A DNA stretch of 55,405 nucleotides from Candidatus Liptonbacteria bacterium (GTDB taxonomy: Bacteria; Patescibacteriota; Minisyncoccia; UBA6257; JACOXY01): NCBI GenBank assembly GCA_016182095.1, contig JACOXY010000013.1, forward strand, positions 1 through 55,405, given 5' to 3'. Both the position numbers and the translations under genes were made by a program. Below the pieces are notes generated by a model. It had not been told where the DNA came from. It searched no databases and saw only the letters and a list, made by a program, of their open reading frames with translations. Below, piece after piece: positions 1,324 to 51,677 of this stretch. Position 1 is the stretch's first letter, and the number at the start of each line of letters is the position of its first letter.

Positions 1324-1788
1324 TCAAATATTATTTGATTTCGGGTAAGGTAAGAACTGCCAGGACGCAGAAACATCCTCGCGCCAAACATATCTTGAGT
1401 GACGGCAACCATATCTTAAACAAAGCACCAGTGCTTGCTGATAAGAAGATCTCATCACGCCCTTTCTCGCGGGATCTTTTTCCAAGTCATGCCAACCAAA
1501 AAAACAGAGAATTGCGCCGAATAAATTTCGAGGATTTTTCTTTTCCGTCCAAGGTTCTATAGATTCAATGGAATAATCTTCAGTGTGTCCGAAATAATCG
1601 TGGGCATGAACGCCAGACACTTCGCAGGCATTAAAGGCATCTCTATACGAATACCGCTCTACTACCGCCCAATGACCGTAATTTTTTACTCGCACAATTG
1701 AACCCAACGGAAAGCGGTCTTCAATAATTTTGTCCTGATTTCTGGCTTTAATGATCGAATCTACCGGGCGACCAATCCAAAGCCCCAT
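1324..1788 (-). CDS. Orphan protein with Cys/Trp/His-rich C-terminus (154 aa)
   Basis: Not recognised. The start MGLWIGRP is set by AAGGAG 7 nt upstream; an upstream in-frame Met lies within the promoter and is rejected. The middle of the protein is beta-rich (IVRVKNYGHWAVVERY). The C-terminal third has LCFFGWHDLEKDPARKG followed by LVLCLRYGCRHSRYVWRE, a spacing of Cys, His and Trp reminiscent of small phage zinc-binding proteins such as DUF1660; this is only a resemblance. Cassette format: TTGACA-N17-TATAAA promoter and a strong terminator 23 bp after the stop. Confidence 0.65.
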   Translation of the reverse strand: MGLWIGRPVDSIIKARNQDKIIEDRFPLGSIVRVKNYGHWAVVERYSYRDAFNACEVSGVHAHDYFGHTEDYSIESIEPWTEKKNPRNLFGAILCFFGWHDLEKDPARKGVMRSSYQQALVLCLRYGCRHSRYVWREDVSASWQFLPYPKSNNI

Positions 1789-11594: not shown

Positions 11595-12287
11595 TTATTC
11601 TTTCTTTGCCGCAGGGGCGGTAATGGCTGGCGTCTCGCCCTCTGTAGTCTTTGACGCTTCGCGTTTTGCTTTTTCTTCTTCAGTCTCAACTTTTACTTCG
11701 TCAATCGTTGCGGGCGCCGCCATTGCCGCTTCTTCTTCCTCGGTCACCTTAGCGTTAATGCTCGCGATAACCGTTTCCTGGTCGGCCAAAAATTCAACCC
11801 CTTTGATTGGAGCGAGGTCTCTTACATAAAAACTTGAGCCAATGTCCACGAGCCCCGCCATGTCAACTTCCAATTTGTGGGGCAGGTCGCCAGGAAGCGC
11901 CTCAACCTCAAGTTCGTGCATCGCTTTTACCAAGATACCATTTTTCTCTTTAACGCCAGGGGCAATACCAATAAATTCCAAAGGAACCCTAGTTTTAATT
12001 TTCTCGTCCATGCGAACCTGGTAAAAATCGACGTGCGTCACGGTATCCCGCACCGGATCGCGATCAATATCATATATCAAAACCGGCCTTTTATCGCCGT
12101 CAATATTTACAGTTAATACGGTGCTCTCTCCGGCCTCCTTAAGAGCTTTGGAAAATTCTTTAGCGGAAACAGCAAGGTGCGCGTTTTCTATGCCTCGTCC
12201 ATAAAGCTCGGCCGGAATATAGCCCTCCGCCCTAAGACCTAAGAGCGCCTTCCCAAATTTTTCTCTTTTTTTAGCAGATAATTCCAT
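11595..12287 (-). CDS. rplY: 50S ribosomal protein L25/TL5 (CTC family)
   Basis: Binds 5S rRNA in the large subunit. The N-terminal L25 domain (about residues 1-90, KREKFGKALLGLRAEGYIPAELYG) and the C-terminal TL5 beta domain (VPLEFIGIAPGVKEKNGILV, LEVEALPGDLPHKLEVDM) are clear. An acidic, Ala-rich tail of about 50 residues follows. The ATG is unusual: its A is the last base of an inverted-repeat arm (GTGAGGG directly before ATGG), the same geometry as the hsp20 gene at 47630. No TATAAT box lies at leaderless spacing; TATAAA-like boxes are inside the repeat region upstream. Confidence 0.92.
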   Translation of the reverse strand: MELSAKKREKFGKALLGLRAEGYIPAELYGRGIENAHLAVSAKEFSKALKEAGESTVLTVNIDGDKRPVLIYDIDRDPVRDTVTHVDFYQVRMDEKIKTRVPLEFIGIAPGVKEKNGILVKAMHELEVEALPGDLPHKLEVDMAGLVDIGSSFYVRDLAPIKGVEFLADQETVIASINAKVTEEEEAAMAAPATIDEVKVETEEEKAKREASKTTEGETPAITAPAAKKE

Positions 12288-12531
12288 CCCTCACGCAAGA
12301 AGGAGCATTATCCGCTTCCTTCCTGTAATTTATCTTTTTATTTACAAAGTTATTTTATAATATTTATGTTCTACTTATCCATCCCTCACCCAAGAAGGAG
12401 TATTGTCCGCCGCTTCTTGTATTATTGTTTAATTTAATATTTAACTGAATTATTACTTATTTTCTAAATTACACATCAGACCATCCTTCACTCCTTCTTG
12501 GGTGAGGGACCACTCCTTCTTGAGTGAGGGA
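12287..12531. repeat. Four-arm CCCTCAC/GTGAGGG inverted repeat upstream of rplY
   Basis: Two arms TCCCTCACSCAAGAAGGAG (12287-12305, 12382-12400) face two reverse complements (12490-12509, 12512-12531). The arms at 12382 and 12490 are exact complements. Looks like a tandem duplication of one palindromic element. The intervening sequence is very A/T-rich. The stretch 12288-12678 holds no gene that I can see apart from this. Confidence 0.8.
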
Positions 12532-15052: not shown

Positions 15053-15071
15053 ACAGAGTATTATACACTAA

Positions 15072-15180
15072 AATAACCCCCCACCCTTCAAGCATTAATA
15101 ACTTTGCGACTAAAAAAGCGTTTGTAAAATTTTTGCTTATCATAAAACTTGTTGTATTGCTTGAAGGGTGGAGGGTTATT
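15072..15180. repeat. Inverted repeat between the PfkB kinase and transketolase C
   Basis: Arms AATAACCCCCCACCCTTCAA...GCA and TGCTTGAAGGGTGGAGGG...TTATT, 23 bp each with one mismatch. The right arm contains the stop codon of the transketolase gene. The core CGCTTTTTTAGTCGCAAAG (minus strand) is shared with the element at 47500-47630. Confidence 0.75.
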
Positions 15181-16180
15181 TTCTTCTGATAACTTTTTTA
15201 ACCGCCCTTACAATATCCTTAACCCCCATGCCATATTTTTCTATAAGTTCGTTTGGACTGCCGGATTCGCCAAAAATATCCTTCATGCCGATAAATTCCA
15301 TCGGCGCAGGCTCGTGTTTCGCGAGCAGCTCGGCTATCGCCCCGCCCAAACCCCCCAAAATTTGGTGCTCCTCCACCGAAACCACAGCTTTGGTTTTTTT
15401 GGCCCAATATACAATGGCCTTTTCATCCAACGGCTTAATGGTATGACAATTTAAGACCACCACGCCAATTTTTTCTTTTTCTAAAATTTGCGCCGCAAGA
15501 ATCGCATTGTGCAGTAATGGCCCGCAGCCGACAATGACAGCTTTGGGAACTCTCCCAAGCCAGAATACTTCGGCCTTCCCTGGGATAAAGGGGGTTTTCT
15601 CGGTCGTAAAAATCGGGGTTTTTTCTCTTGCGAATCTTAAATAGACCGGCCCCCATATTTTCGCGGCCGCGACTGTGGCTTTTCTGGCCTCAATCGCGTC
15701 ACAGGGCACAAAAACTTTCATATTAGCCATGACGCGCATTGTCGCGATATCCTCTATCGCCTGGTGAGTCGCTCCATCAGGCCCCACAGAAATTCCGGCG
15801 TGAGATCCGGCAATTTTAACATTGGAATCATTGTATGAAATAGTTGTTCTGATTTGCTCCCAATTTCTGCCTGGAGAAAAAGTAGCATAAGAAGAAATAA
15901 AGGGAATTTTTCCTGAAACACCCAAGCCTGCGGCAATAGTTGCTAAATTCTGCTCGGCTACTCCAACTTGGAAAAATCTTTGCGGATATTTTTTGGCGAA
16001 TGCTTCCATGCGAGTTGATTCCGTTAAGTCGGCGCAAAGCGCGACCACATTTTGGTCGTGATCGGCCGCCTCCACCAAGCCCAAACCAAAGCCGTCGCGA
16101 GTGGGCTTCATTTCTAATCCACCTTCATGAGATGCGGATATCGCCTCTAATGCAAGTTTTGCGTTAAGATTTAATGACAT
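15176..16180 (-). CDS. Transketolase, C-terminal subunit
   Basis: The pyrimidine-binding and C-terminal domains of thiamine-diphosphate transketolase, 334 aa. VGVAEQNLATIAAGL carries the catalytic Glu that activates the cofactor; GSHAGISVGPDGATHQAIED and YLRFAREKTP are family motifs; the C-terminal domain starts at VIVGCGPLLHNAI. It must pair with the N-terminal subunit at 16757-17644. The ATG follows GGGAG by about 10 nt, so it may be translated from the shared transcript. Split transketolases are known in archaea and many CPR bacteria. Confidence 0.92.
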   Translation of the reverse strand: MSLNLNAKLALEAISASHEGGLEMKPTRDGFGLGLVEAADHDQNVVALCADLTESTRMEAFAKKYPQRFFQVGVAEQNLATIAAGLGVSGKIPFISSYATFSPGRNWEQIRTTISYNDSNVKIAGSHAGISVGPDGATHQAIEDIATMRVMANMKVFVPCDAIEARKATVAAAKIWGPVYLRFAREKTPIFTTEKTPFIPGKAEVFWLGRVPKAVIVGCGPLLHNAILAAQILEKEKIGVVVLNCHTIKPLDEKAIVYWAKKTKAVVSVEEHQILGGLGGAIAELLAKHEPAPMEFIGMKDIFGESGSPNELIEKYGMGVKDIVRAVKKVIRRK

Positions 16181-19608: not shown

Positions 19609-20233
19609 TTAACTCCATATAGGCTGTTTTTGGATTTTCACTCCCAAAAATAAAGTTTCCGGCCACAAATAGGCTAGCTCCGGCTTCTTTCGCGAGTTTC
19701 GCTGTTTCTAAATTAACGCCACCGTCAATTTCTATAATCACGTCTGATTTTTTATTTTTTAAAATTTTTATTTTTTCTAAAATTTCCGGCTTAAACGACT
19801 GCCCCGAAGGTCCCGGGGAAACCGCAAGCATTAAAAAACCGTCAAAATCATCAATGTGAGCGAAAATCCGCTCTACGGGAGTTGCTGGATTTATCGCTAA
19901 AAAAATCTCTGCATTATATTTTTTGTATTTTTCAATTAAATAAACCAAGTCGCCCATAGATTCCAGGTGGACAATGAGCCGCTTTGCGCCGGCCCGAAGC
20001 CACCGGTCAGCCTGAACTTCCGGATCTTCTACCATTAAATGAACTTCGAATCGCGGCGGGTTCGCGCCAAAAAATTCAGCAAACTCCTCCGGATTATTCC
20101 AGCTCACATGCGGGGTGAACTTGCCGTCAGAAATATCAACATGCATCATGGGAGCAAATTCGCTCGCCAAAGCTATTCGTTTTTTTATACACTCAAAATT
20201 TTCGCAATTGATTGATGGGATTATTTGATTCAT
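19592..20233 (-). CDS. rpe: Ribulose-phosphate 3-epimerase
   Basis: Interconverts ribulose-5-P and xylulose-5-P for transketolase. A TIM barrel of 213 aa: IPSINCENF, MHVDISDGKF (metal His and Asp), FEVHLMVEDPE (metal His), LAVSPGPSGQSF, and EIDGGVNLETAKL with the phosphate-binding GNFIFGS. The start MNQIIPSINC is preferred over an ATG 19 codons upstream because the extra codons lie inside a MITE-like element. The A of its ATG is the terminal base of that element (CACTCCTATG), so the element has inserted exactly at the start. Confidence 0.93.
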   Translation of the reverse strand: MNQIIPSINCENFECIKKRIALASEFAPMMHVDISDGKFTPHVSWNNPEEFAEFFGANPPRFEVHLMVEDPEVQADRWLRAGAKRLIVHLESMGDLVYLIEKYKKYNAEIFLAINPATPVERIFAHIDDFDGFLMLAVSPGPSGQSFKPEILEKIKILKNKKSDVIIEIDGGVNLETAKLAKEAGASLFVAGNFIFGSENPKTAYMELIDKIA

Positions 20234-20542
20234 AGGAGTGTGAAATACGAACAAAATCAATTGAGCGGAGCGAATTTGGCAAATATTCAAGGCGCGAGGA
20301 GGAGATTAGTAGCTTAAGCTACAGCTCCGACGAGTCCCGTTAGAAAGTCATCTTTCTAACGGGACGAGCAACGCTGAATATTTATCAAATTCGCCCGCCC
20401 CTCCGGGGAAGCTAAAAAATGGGTGATTTTCTTCGTTACTCTTCCTTAATGTATTCTACGAATACAATTTCGTCGTCGTGCCTTGAAATCATCTCATTTT
20501 TTAGCTTCTCAAGCTGATTTATGTTCGTATTTCACACTCCTA
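20233..20542. mobile_element. MITE-like structured element, copy A (310 bp)
   Basis: Perfect 20-bp terminal inverted repeats TAGGAGTGTGAAATACGAAC. Inside are two further foldback arms: GCGAATTTGGCAAATATTCA with its complement near 20375-20400, and AAGCTAAAAAATG/CATTTTTTAGCTT enclosing GTATTC-TAC-GAATAC. It carries a nested palindrome CCCGTTAGAAAG...CTTTCTAACGGG. It fills the gap between the stop of the L,D-transpeptidase gene and the start of rpe exactly. No open frame of its own. Copies B (51359) and C (26316) are homologous. Confidence 0.85.
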
Positions 20543-21919
20543 TTATTTTAACCCAAAACTTTTATTTAACCAGGCGAGAACATTCTCCATGTCTTTCCGG
20601 ATATTCTGCGACCCCAAAAATATTATACCGATTGTACGAACTTCTCCGCTCGAAAGCTTTAACTTCCAAGTGGAAACCAAGCCCTCGCCGCCTCCGCTAT
20701 AAGCAGTAATCCCGCCAAGCAATGAATCACCCTGAAACGCGGCACCGAGCTCATAAAGGCCTGACTGTTCTGTCTTGCTAATTTCTAAAATAACGCTCCT
20801 CTTTTCAATTATATATTTCAGCAATTTGGTGAGGTCGCTTGCGGTACTCACATTATCCTGCCCCAAACTCGCCGAATTGGACATTTTAGTACTGCCCATT
20901 TCCAGAGATTTTATTTTAGCCGCGACATTATCCATAAAAAGTTTTTCCCCCAGAAAAGAAGCGAGGGCGCGGGATGCTCCATTTGAAGAGCGGCTAATTA
21001 TCGGCGACAAAAGTTCAAGTGCCTCATAGCGCTCGCTTGGCAATAACTCGTAGCTCTGCTCTTCGCCAGAGAGCATGTATTCCTGTATGGTTATAAGCCG
21101 TCCAAGATAAATAACTTCACTGCCGGTAAGCGCTGTTATAAGTTTCCCCAACGATCCCATTGGCAAAATATCGTTGGAATTAAAATCCAAAAGCGGTTCA
21201 TCTCCGCTAAAATCATAAACAAGCGCTGACTTCGCGGTTATGGGCAGTGGCGCTATATCTGCGGTTATGGCCTGAAGCGGCGCTTTCAAAAAAAGCTGAC
21301 TGCTCTGGTCGGTCACCAAAACGGGCATTCCTTTTTTGGCAAAATCATAAACAAGTTTTGCGTCTTCATCCGAAAGACTTACGCACCCCGAGGAATACGC
21401 GGAGTCTGCAGGCGCGCCGCTTGGAAAACGCGGCGGTCCGTGTATAAAATAATTGCCGTAAAACCAGACACTCCACGGCATCCACACCTTGGCAATTGAC
21501 GATAAATGATTTCTTTCTTTAGAAATTACCTCATAATTTCCGGACGGGGTTTCGCGCGGGCCGCCCTCGCGCCCTTTGCGCAAAACCTTGAGCGTCGCGG
21601 AGGCGGTTCCCTCGCTAAAAATAGTAAGTTCCATCTTCACTAAATCTATTGCTATAAAATCCCTCTTTTCCTCAATATATCTGTCGCGCAGAAGTACAAA
21701 TTTTTCATGCTCAATCGCCGGCATTTCACCGGAATTTGTAAAAGGGCCGCTTTTCGCGGCAAGCACTTGCCGCTCATACAAATTCTGCCAATTTCTCAAA
21801 TCGCTTTTTACAATCTGAAACTCCTTATAAAAACCATAAAACAATCCGGCGGCGACCACGCCTAAAAAAAGAAGCGCAAAAAAGCTGAATTTGAAAAAAA
21901 GTTGGGATTTTCTCTTCAT
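20543..21919 (-). CDS. L,D-transpeptidase fused to a D-Ala-D-Ala carboxypeptidase-like domain
   Basis: Periplasm-facing cell-wall enzyme with an N-terminal membrane helix (residues 8-32). The YkuD domain (about 85-205) has HGPPRFPSG and SSGCVSLSDEDA, the His and Cys of L,D-transpeptidases that make 3-3 crosslinks. The second domain (about 225-458) resembles S11 penicillin-binding proteins: MGSLGKLIT (SxxK) and SRSSNGA (SxN). A KTG triad is not evident; SGGGEG stands near its place, so activity of this half is uncertain. Core format: TGTTAAAAT ends 6 nt before the ATG. Its stop abuts MITE-like copy A. Confidence 0.85.
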   Translation of the reverse strand: MKRKSQLFFKFSFFALLFLGVVAAGLFYGFYKEFQIVKSDLRNWQNLYERQVLAAKSGPFTNSGEMPAIEHEKFVLLRDRYIEEKRDFIAIDLVKMELTIFSEGTASATLKVLRKGREGGPRETPSGNYEVISKERNHLSSIAKVWMPWSVWFYGNYFIHGPPRFPSGAPADSAYSSGCVSLSDEDAKLVYDFAKKGMPVLVTDQSSQLFLKAPLQAITADIAPLPITAKSALVYDFSGDEPLLDFNSNDILPMGSLGKLITALTGSEVIYLGRLITIQEYMLSGEEQSYELLPSERYEALELLSPIISRSSNGASRALASFLGEKLFMDNVAAKIKSLEMGSTKMSNSASLGQDNVSTASDLTKLLKYIIEKRSVILEISKTEQSGLYELGAAFQGDSLLGGITAYSGGGEGLVSTWKLKLSSGEVRTIGIIFLGSQNIRKDMENVLAWLNKSFGLK

Positions 21920-33217: not shown

Positions 33218-33352
33218 ATCTAACGACATCGCAAGTCGTAAATTAATTTCTTCATTAAAAATCAATGATTGACTGTACCAAATTCCTACAAACGGTGTCA
33301 AGCGACAGCTACCACCACATCCACCATTTAACGACTTGCGATGTCGTTAGAT
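33218..33352. repeat. Long inverted repeat with CGACATCGCAAGTCG core
   Basis: ATCTAACGACATCGCAAGTC... (33218-33243) and its complement (33326-33352), about 26 bp with one mismatch, enclose 82 bp. The core GACATCGCAAGTC equals the palindrome inside mutM at 41908. No gene lies within. Confidence 0.8.
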
Positions 33353-40365: not shown

Positions 40366-40402
40366 GGTCCCATCGTCTAACGGCTAGGACATGCCCCTTT
40401 TT
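40366..40402 (+). pseudogene. 5' fragment of a tRNA-Glu
   Basis: GGTCCCATCGTCTAACGGCT onward matches the 5' half of the intact tRNA-Glu 80 bp downstream for 23 nt (CCATCG...GGACAT). It breaks off at the anticodon arm, where the left arm of an inverted repeat begins. Confidence 0.75.
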
Positions 40403-40404
40403 CA

Positions 40405-40546
40405 TCCCTCACTCAAACTGGATTAGGCGCGGCACCCATCGACACGGCGCCATCGTCTAACGGCTAGGACATCGCCCTTTCACGGCGGAAATACGGGTTC
40501 GATTCCCGTTGGCGCTACTCAATAATAATCCAGCTTGAGTGAGGGA
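40405..40546. repeat. CCCTCAC/GTGAGGG inverted repeat enclosing tRNA-Glu
   Basis: TCCCTCACTCAAACTGG (40405-40421) and CCAGCTTGAGTGAGGGA (40530-40546), one mismatch. The intact tRNA-Glu lies inside. The sequence after the right arm (AAGCGGCAAAATAGGG) vaguely resembles a tRNA 3' half. Confidence 0.75.
40446..40517 (+). tRNA. tRNA-Glu (anticodon TTC)
   Basis: GGCGCCA/TGGCGCT acceptor stem (with a G-U pair), D arm TCGTCTAACGGCTAGGA, anticodon loop CTTTCAC in a CGCC/GGCG stem, and GGGTTCGATTCCC T arm. CCA is not encoded. Confidence 0.92.
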
Positions 40547-46767: not shown

Positions 46768-47499
46768 ATGACGCTAATATTATTGCTACTGGGTATTCTC
46801 CCTGGCTTTGTCTGGCTCCTCTTCTATCTTGAGGAAGACACAGACCACGAGCCAATGCGCGAAGTTTTTTTCGCCTTTCTTATCGGTTCGGCAATTACGA
46901 TCATTGTCCTTTTTACCGAACAGCTCTACGCCGCGCTTGGCAACATTATTGGGATAGCGCCTTATTCCTTTATATCTTTTCTGGGGCTCTCTTCAATAGA
47001 AGAATTTTTTAAATTCGCCGCCGCCTATCTGGTGGTAAGCAAGAGCAGGTATTTTGATATACCGGTTGACGCAATGATTTATATGGTTGTGGTGGCTCTG
47101 GGCTTTGCGACACTTGAAAACATTTTCGCGGTAAGCGGAGAGTTCAAAAACGCAGCCGCCCTAAGTTCCGCGGCCGAAACTGCCTCGCTCCGTTTTGTTG
47201 GCGCGACCCTGCTTCACACTCTTGCCTCCGCGACTGTGGGATATTACTGGGCCAAGGCGATGACCCACGGCTCTTGGGTTAAAAATTTAGTCACAGGGCT
47301 ATCTCTCGCGACCGGACTCCACACTGTCTTTAATTATCTCGTATCCGTTGAGGGCGTATCCATAATTTATCCCGTGATACTGCTCACCGTAGCAGGATTC
47401 TTTGTCCTAAACGACTTTGATAAACTAAAGCATCCTGAGAAACTGGGGGTTGCGCCATTCTTCAAAAAAAGAGTTGGCGCTCAAGCTGATATGGTATAA
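46768..47499 (+). CDS. PrsW-family intramembrane protease
   Basis: A membrane protein of 243 aa with about seven helices. Signature residues of PrsW glutamic/metal-type proteases: SSIEEFFKFAA (Glu pair about 78-79), FATLENIFAV, TLLHTLASA (His about 150) and GLHTVFNYL (His about 183). In Bacillus PrsW cleaves the anti-sigma RsiW; the substrate here is unknown. Core format: TGCTATAAT ends 7 nt before ATG. Confidence 0.85.
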   Translation: MTLILLLLGILPGFVWLLFYLEEDTDHEPMREVFFAFLIGSAITIIVLFTEQLYAALGNIIGIAPYSFISFLGLSSIEEFFKFAAAYLVVSKSRYFDIPVDAMIYMVVVALGFATLENIFAVSGEFKNAAALSSAAETASLRFVGATLLHTLASATVGYYWAKAMTHGSWVKNLVTGLSLATGLHTVFNYLVSVEGVSIIYPVILLTVAGFFVLNDFDKLKHPEKLGVAPFFKKRVGAQADMV

Positions 47500-47630
47500 T
47501 CCCTCACTCTTCACGCATCAAAATGAAGATTGTGGATATTCTCTTATTGATATGGCAAGGTTGTGTTATAATGAAAATAATTAATAATCGCTTTTTGTCG
47601 CAAAGCGACTAATGAGTGAAGAGTGAGGGA
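47500..47630. repeat. CCCTCAC/GTGAGGG inverted repeat upstream of hsp20, with internal promoter
   Basis: TCCCTCACTCTTCACGCAT (47500-47518) and ATGAGTGAAGAGTGAGGGA (47612-47630), one mismatch. A TGTGTTATAATG promoter core lies inside at about 47564-47576. The right-hand part CGCTTTTTGTCGCAAAGCG is shared with the element at 15072-15180. Confidence 0.8.
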
Positions 47631-48100
47631 TGGACGATGATACAAAAAATTATTTAAACGAGCTGTCACAAGAAACCGGCGAAGAGAATATAGAATTAGC
47701 GAGGTCTGGCGGCGCTGTCACAAACTCCAAGAAATCAGCCGAAAAAAATCTTGCCCTCTCGAGTGAAATGGAGGGGCAATTAACAATTGATGTCTATCAG
47801 ACAAGTTCGCATATTATAGTTGAATCAACTATCGCCGGAGTTAATCCGGACGATTTGGATATTGAAATTACCCCGGAATCTGTAACTATAAGGGGGCAAA
47901 GGGAAAAAGAGGAGCGCGTTAAGGAAGACGATTACATTTATCAAGAGTGTTACTGGGGAAGATTTTCACGATCGGTTATTCTGCCGCAGGAAGTTGACCC
48001 GGATAAATCAGAGGCAACGCTCAAAAATGGCGTCTTAAAAATAAAGCTTCCAAAAATCAATCGCGAAAAAAGCAAAAAACTGAAAGTGAATTTCGTGTAA
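47630..48100 (+). CDS. Small heat-shock protein Hsp20
   Basis: ATP-independent holdase of 156 aa. Acidic disordered N-terminus (about 1-45), alpha-crystallin domain LTIDVYQTSSHIIVESTIAGVNPDDL ... to the GVLKIKLPKI strand (I/L-x-I/L type), and a basic tail. The A of ATG is the last base of the GTGAGGG arm of an inverted repeat, and the promoter inside that repeat would give a leader of about 55 nt. The position of the arm over the ribosome site would allow structure-controlled translation; this is an inference. Confidence 0.92.
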   Translation: MDDDTKNYLNELSQETGEENIELARSGGAVTNSKKSAEKNLALSSEMEGQLTIDVYQTSSHIIVESTIAGVNPDDLDIEITPESVTIRGQREKEERVKEDDYIYQECYWGRFSRSVILPQEVDPDKSEATLKNGVLKIKLPKINREKSKKLKVNFV

Positions 48101-51358: not shown

Positions 51359-51677
51359 TAGGAGTGCGAGATACGAACAAAATCAATTGAGCGGAGCGAA
51401 TTTGGCAAATATTCAAGGCGCGACCTGCCTGCGCAGGCAGGGGAGGAGGTTAGTGCTCGGAGAGCACAGCTCCGACAAGCAACGCTGAATATTTATCAAA
51501 TTCGCCCGCCCCCTTGGGAAAGTTAAAAAATGGCTGATTTCTTCGTTATGCTTCATCCTGAGCTTGCCGAAGGACTCCTCCTCAATGTATTCTCCGAATA
51601 CAATTTCGTCATCGTGCCTTGAAATCATCTCATTTTTTAGCTTTTCAATTTGATTTTGTTCGTATCTCGCACTCCTA
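51359..51677. mobile_element. MITE-like structured element, copy B (319 bp)
   Basis: Terminal inverted repeats TAGGAGTGCGAGATACGAAC are perfect and extend to about 28 bp. Same internal foldback plan as copy A, with GTGCTC-GGA-GAGCAC in place of GTAGCTTAAGCTAC. Two palindromes are nested in it: CCTGCCTGCGCAGGCAGG and TCCTGAGCTTGCCGAAGGA. Confidence 0.85.

Follow-up and report, generated by a model that had tools for sequence, protein, structure and literature searches.

The palindromic repeats that end on start codons in this genome are probably insertion sequence-like elements of a small, Ssn-like GIY-YIG nuclease, together with non-autonomous derivatives of them. We analyzed a 55,405-nt stretch of DNA (the window), which is contig 16 of a 23-contig, 893-kb draft genome, and followed its repeats through the rest of that genome and through its relatives; all of the data come from draft genomes, in which short repeats can mislead assembly.

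In the window, rplY (minus strand, 11595-12287; L25/TL5, with a Ribosomal_L25p/TL5 match) adjoins an outer TCCCTCAC...GTGAGGGA element on the same strand (12287-12531; arms 12287-12305 and 12513-12531), and the final base of its GTGAGGGA arm is the A of the rplY ATG at 12287. Nested within it on the minus strand is an inner element (12382-12509) whose arms, 12382-12401 and 12490-12509, are perfectly complementary over 20 bp, and once this copy is subtracted the outer element measures ~117 bp, a normal element size. On the plus strand a TCCCTCAC element occupies positions 47500-47630, in the spacer between a PrsW-like gene, whose TAA (47497-47499) immediately precedes it, and hsp20 (47630-48100, plus strand; HSP20 match), whose ATG (47630-47632) is completed by the element's last base, the final base of the arm at 47623-47630. 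The first-pass annotation had placed the last arm base on the A of ATG at both genes, and its coordinates proved correct. It had also described inverted repeats enclosing a tRNA-Glu, and a complete tRNA-Glu(TTC) at 40446-40518 indeed lies on the plus strand between the arms, at 40405 and 40546, of a TCCCTCAC element (40405-40546, plus strand). The repeat that it placed between the PfkB and transketolase genes is a real palindrome (15070-15182, CCCCCCACCCTTCAAGCA / TGCTTGAAGGGTGGAGGG), and its right arm does hold a stop codon, the TAA of the transketolase gene, but the core has diverged to CCCCCCAC/GTGGAGGG, so that it is a diverged relative.

The window contains 11 copies of the heptamer CCCTCAC where 3.3 are expected, and none of 100 shuffles reached this number; the matches at 444, 2542 and 44826 are unpaired. 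The shuffles and the reversed-pattern controls given below led us to set aside chance as the origin of the palindromes. Plain terminators were also rejected, the arms being 90 bp apart with no consistent T-run, as was a phage origin, for which there were only one weak IMG/VR match and two weak phage records. The window contains other repeats as well: a second inverted-repeat family, TAGGAGTGYGARATACGAACA, is found at 20232-20543 and 51359-51677 (~312-319 bp), has several internal hairpins and no nuclease ORF, and is represented by 16 end copies in the stretches examined, while a perfect 22-bp inverted repeat, ATCTAACGACATCGCAAGTCGT, with a 91-bp spacer at 33218-33352 possibly belongs to another element family.

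Genome-wide, TCCCTCAC occurs 93 times, against 19 occurrences of a reversed control pattern, and pairs of the form TCCCTCAC-N(85-115)-GTGAGGGA, 101-131 bp in total, number 26 against 0 for the control. Within the 634 of 893 kb examined there are 35 distinct paired TCCCTCAC...GTGAGGGA elements, mostly of 118-132 bp, including one 28-bp mini-hairpin, two 287-bp copies and two nested composites; about 30 are shorter copies without a nuclease gene. Terminal inverted repeats of ~20 bp, beginning TCCCTCAC(Y)CTT..., are common to the nuclease-bearing and the short copies. Copies within the genome have near-identical interiors set in unrelated flanks, and homology stops at the repeat.

Searching the genome for pairs and measuring their distance to starts, as the first-pass annotation had proposed, upheld the link to gene boundaries. 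When tRNA-type, mini and nested copies were left out and the ATG was required to open at least 80 codons, an arm ended exactly on ATG in 21 of the 29 testable pairs (p ~5e-22), with gene calls that are crude (longest ATG-started ORFs) and against a null of 4.8%, the share of non-coding A^T sites that are start codons. In relatives the corresponding figure is 16 of 27 (ORFs of at least 60 codons). The other arm often directly follows the upstream stop, giving TAA[TCCCTCAC...GTGAGGGA]TG in this genome and in relatives, and the elements adjoin ATG and stop codons, not interrupting coding sequence. The boundary rule is insertion at the N^TG of start codons, where the A that ends the element makes the ATG complete. 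The gene pairs that host copies are rpsK/rpsD, rpsD/rpoA, rplM/rpsI, pilT/pilC and the pair before rplT, and further host genes are a response regulator, rplY and hsp20. One relative has TAATG, the expected empty form, at its rpsK/rpsD junction, and relatives also show an empty pilT/pilC junction.

The first-pass annotation had supposed that the palindromes can cover ribosome sites. Shine-Dalgarno-like motifs before the ATG are at background in this genome (12.7% of 409 ORFs vs 10.5-13.7% in control windows), a crude count that takes the first ATG as the start and could hide a weak signal. We therefore dropped occlusion of ribosome sites; the positional rule is one of insertion at start codons.

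The arms differ between loci and pair within each locus, as had been noted from the window. Among 27 distinct arm pairs, 96.1% of arm cells form standard pairs vs 84.2% (sd 1.0) when the arms are shuffled, and double-sided changes are found in 52 cells vs 14.9, a signal that is lost when the pairing is slid; the outermost 8 bp are invariant. Few of the 52 compensated cells are G.U pairs, unlike the usual result of selection on RNA, and because of this we favor maintenance of arm complementarity at the level of DNA. Folding of the rplY and hsp20 leaders, also proposed at the outset, gave structures far better than those of shuffled sequences (z -6.8 for the inner rplY element and -6.7 for the hsp20 element), as is expected of any palindrome. 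In an Rfam search of the window only tRNAs reached the gathering score, with no leader or intron family, and a riboswitch or known RNA leader was dropped for want of such a match.

Inside each of the two 287-bp copies lies the ORF of an 86-aa GIY-YIG protein, intact in one (C18:50222-50479) and broken by a TAA in the other (on C2). Matches to the GIY-YIG family PF01541 score 49.3, 63.8, 58.5 and 40.5 bits vs a curated cut-off of 22.6, and residues Y5, Y16, G18, R26, H30, E50, E62 and K66, which include the GIY-YIG catalytic set, are invariant in 35 homologs, nearly all of them repeat-associated. The structure model of the nuclease (pLDDT 90) has a GIY-YIG fold; the nearest PDB entries are UPF0213 BH0048, Slx1, I-TevI and the UvrC N-domain, with E-values that are weak because the chain is short, and the TM-score to the catalytic domain of I-TevI is 0.50. 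This is the sole ORF of the elements, which contain no DDE, HUH, serine or tyrosine transposase, and no other gene was found linked to the repeats.

Homologs of the nuclease are present in 49 of the 61 genomes sampled. Inverted repeats scoring at least 13 flank 56 of 93 homolog loci, a number that includes a handful of longer unrelated palindromes, vs 0 of 176 and 3 of 300 control windows; ~40% of the homologs have no clear repeat. The enclosed homologs, about half order-wide, lie in elements of 252-345 bp, and both the repeat sequence, which starts with (A)TCCC, ACCCC or CCCCG, and the class of target differ from one GIY-YIG clade to another. On the protein tree the repeat-bearing rows cluster (17 changes vs 29 in shuffles), and the hosts of close relatives belong to different families; named relatives are from Candidatus Harrisonbacteria and Wolfebacteria, remoter matches lie elsewhere, and a record labelled Desulfobacterales has a ATCCCGTTAGA-type element at a start codon. 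Every assembled end of the close relatives of the window genome's nuclease carries TCCCTCACYCTT, and such relatives are found in 5 of 12 genomes with short pairs vs 0 of 13 sampled without them (Fisher p 0.015). Over repeat-bearing elements of all clades the right end lies on ATG in 20 of 49 cases and the left end in 0 of 49, with a control of 2%. The pilC start codon used in the window genome has been entered by a different clade in another genome, and six relatives are empty there.

Other classes of target were seen in other clades. Elements with ACCCC(G/T)CACC ends lie directly before TTGACA (L064, L072 and L073), and at L073 a perfect promoter, TTGACA-N17-TATAAT, stands behind the element. 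One clade is found at tRNA 3' ends and others at tRNA 5' ends; in one genome, G045, near-identical GIY-YIG elements (L078, L094, L095 and L107) lie at the 3' ends of different tRNA genes and are followed by end fragments in tandem arrays. At L063 (~1470-1770, minus strand) an RNase P RNA gene appears to be the site of a GIY-YIG element with CCCCCCACC ends (GGGGGG|AGGAAAGTC), an assignment that comes from a weak RNase P match (E 0.006).

The insertion event itself can be read in a sister clade. Among 244 genomes of the order, 21 contain its pattern, TCCCGTTAGAG...CTCTAACGGGA, vs none for the control pattern, and all 20 parsed copies share one orientation, ending in GGGA|TG; in 15 of them the ATG begins a reading frame of 100 codons or more, and in two others the frame is cut off by a contig end. 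TGAA stands on both sides of 11 of the 20 copies. For the gene behind L083, two genomes supply near-identical empty sites, ATGAAAAATTATTAC and ATGAAAAACTATTAC, and for the gene behind L115 the empty site is ATATGAAAATTACATTT. Therefore, entry occurred at A^TGAA, the TGAA was duplicated, and the last A of the element rebuilt the ATG. In 19 of the 20 copies the nuclease ORF lacks its own stop and terminates at the TGA of the target, producing an ATGA overlap with the host start, a natural consequence of which may be, judging from the sequence, translational coupling of the host gene to the nuclease ORF.

A 2-bp duplication of AT was dropped as a general rule, as the empty sites show TGAA, and duplication is not uniform: TGAA is duplicated at some sites, nothing at TAA^TG, and ~4-5 bases are lost at tRNA sites. 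In the window's own clade three copies show the TGAA duplication and the TAA^TG junctions none, the latter sites being compatible with no duplication or with AT. Insertion itself is proven, from these sequence comparisons, for the sister clade only, because the empty junctions of the window's clade lack a close genome with the same intergenic DNA. The initial proposal of a mobile or copied palindrome is nevertheless borne out by the near-identical interiors in unrelated flanks, the empty sites and duplication of the sister clade and the covarying arms.

In tRNA clusters, TCCCTCAC copies lie inside an older tRNA, in or near its anticodon arm, with a complete tRNA within them. For at least four of the six such copies (L043, L048, L049 and L052) the inner tRNA matches the outer one in type, and L016:7505-7611 is a further nested locus. 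In several cases the halves of the older tRNA can still pair in the acceptor stem, although the break lacks ~4-5 bases. The tRNA-Glu of the window is nested in this way, with the old tRNA recognizable by its 5' part only: a disrupted tRNA-Glu (40366-40404, plus strand), identified from a 27-point local match in which CCATCGTCTAACGGCTAGGACAT is identical, ends in the anticodon region and directly adjoins the element. The same genome has a further tRNA-Glu(TTC) on contig C10 (L016:7383-7456). A first impression of arbitrary tRNA cargo gave way to this nested reading, which suggests that the element carries a replacement for the gene that it destroys. At L043 and L052 the T-loops of the broken outer tRNAs hold another palindrome, of the CCTGCCTGCCGGCAGGCAG type, as though dead tRNA genes were open to a second family of repeats.

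Several of these results could be accounted for in other ways. Cis-acting mRNA hairpin leaders ending at the start codon might regulate or process the mRNAs of ribosomal proteins and other genes, for example by cleavage at the stem base to give a leaderless mRNA, and have spread by duplication; the strong folds, the covarying arms, the ends exactly on ATG and the presence of several copies in ribosomal operons would all fit. We consider this quite unlikely, given that the scarcity of G.U among compensated cells points to maintenance at the DNA level, that copies are also found within tRNA genes and within one another, that the interiors of subfamilies are unrelated, that some copies hold a nuclease gene, that relatives lack the element at the same genes and that no Rfam family matches. 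An unrelated transposase acting in trans on the repeats, with the GIY-YIG ORF as a passenger, would explain why most copies have no ORF and why some genomes with pairs lack an intact close GIY-YIG gene; it seems very unlikely when repeat sequence and target class both go with the GIY-YIG clade, the catalytic residues do not vary and the repeats have no link to another gene.

GIY-YIG enzymes are classical homing nucleases, and the nuclease here might accordingly do nothing more than break empty sites, the element then spreading through homologous repair or natural transformation with no true transposition. The tRNA-bearing copies lie in tRNA genes mostly of the same type, as if flanking homology matters, and one pilC start codon has been used by different clades, both of which fit such homing. 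Set against this are the near-identical copies at many unrelated sites of one genome, with no flank homology beyond the repeat, and the 4-bp duplications at new sites, which need ectopic cutting and joining, and we judge homing of this kind unlikely. GIY-YIG enzymes are known as hydrolases and are not known to be transposases, which counts against the nuclease as the mover, as does the finding of an intact close nuclease in only five of the 12 genomes with pairs. The fixed orientation, too, could reflect selection instead of targeting.

With these points weighed, we infer from the sequence associations that the GIY-YIG nuclease mobilizes the elements. It would recognize the hairpin that its repeats form, probably when replication or DNA uptake makes the DNA single-stranded, and cut the element ends and a short target motif, after which the element would be copied in by repair; autonomous copies would be mobilized in this way and short copies in trans. 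During passage through a long hairpin, mismatch repair would restore the complementarity of the arms, and such repair would leave arms that differ between copies yet pair within a copy, with few G.U. Insertion at start codons would be tolerated because the ATG is rebuilt and the genome seems not to rely on Shine-Dalgarno motifs, so that landing on an ATG should be mild in this genome, and in nuclease-bearing copies coupling of the host gene to the nuclease ORF may add to the tolerance. A fuller proposal, which we put forward tentatively as about as open to doubt as to belief, with doubt slightly the stronger, is that of a new transposon class in which a lone GIY-YIG nuclease of 85-90 residues moves a ~280-bp hairpin element, by cut-and-paste or by copying, into a target that depends on the clade (start codons, -35 boxes or tRNA ends), the stop being borrowed from the target, the start rebuilt, the arms kept complementary by repair of a hairpin intermediate, and some derivatives bringing a replacement tRNA into the tRNA gene that is broken.

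The Ssn enzymes are site-specific single-stranded GIY-YIG nucleases that occur with NTS repeats in Neisseria, and this system appears to be the closest precedent. Both combine a small stand-alone GIY-YIG nuclease with many genomic copies of a matching short palindromic repeat, but in the present elements the nuclease gene itself lies between the repeats, within a ~290-bp unit, and the short copies are inserted exactly at start codons, with target duplications and empty sites. Miniature and full insertion sequences (MITEs/IS, including Correia elements and NIME/dRS3) share short non-autonomous copies, terminal inverted repeats of ~20 bp, target duplications of 4-5 bp in several clades and an autonomous partner with the same repeat, whereas the present elements have a GIY-YIG nuclease as sole ORF in place of a DDE, HUH, serine or tyrosine transposase, covarying arms, and start-codon targeting with the ATG rebuilt. 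Homing elements of the I-TevI type have the same catalytic fold and insert into conserved sites; unlike them, the elements described here have no intron, intein or DNA-binding linker, and have terminal inverted repeats and targets of 3-5 bp at many loci. The REP/RAYT systems (IS200/IS605-like) also tie genome-wide palindromes to a small nuclease with hairpins as its substrate, as is presumed for the one here, but there is no HUH/Y1 enzyme and no GTAG/CGTC tag in our elements, whose ends are ATCCC or ACCCC.

A literature search returned no description of bacterial GIY-YIG genes enclosed by terminal inverted repeats. A 2006 survey of the GIY-YIG superfamily raised as a question of interest whether members beyond the known homing and restriction enzymes act as molecular parasites (PMC1564403), and the elements look like such parasites. 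If confirmed, they would rank with the smallest self-contained mobile elements known (~280 bp, with one protein of 86 aa), and their entry at start codons, each rebuilt in the process, would be their means of living in a tiny, gene-dense genome. For annotation, the short intergenic spacers, odd leaders and extra tRNAs of such genomes may be insertions.
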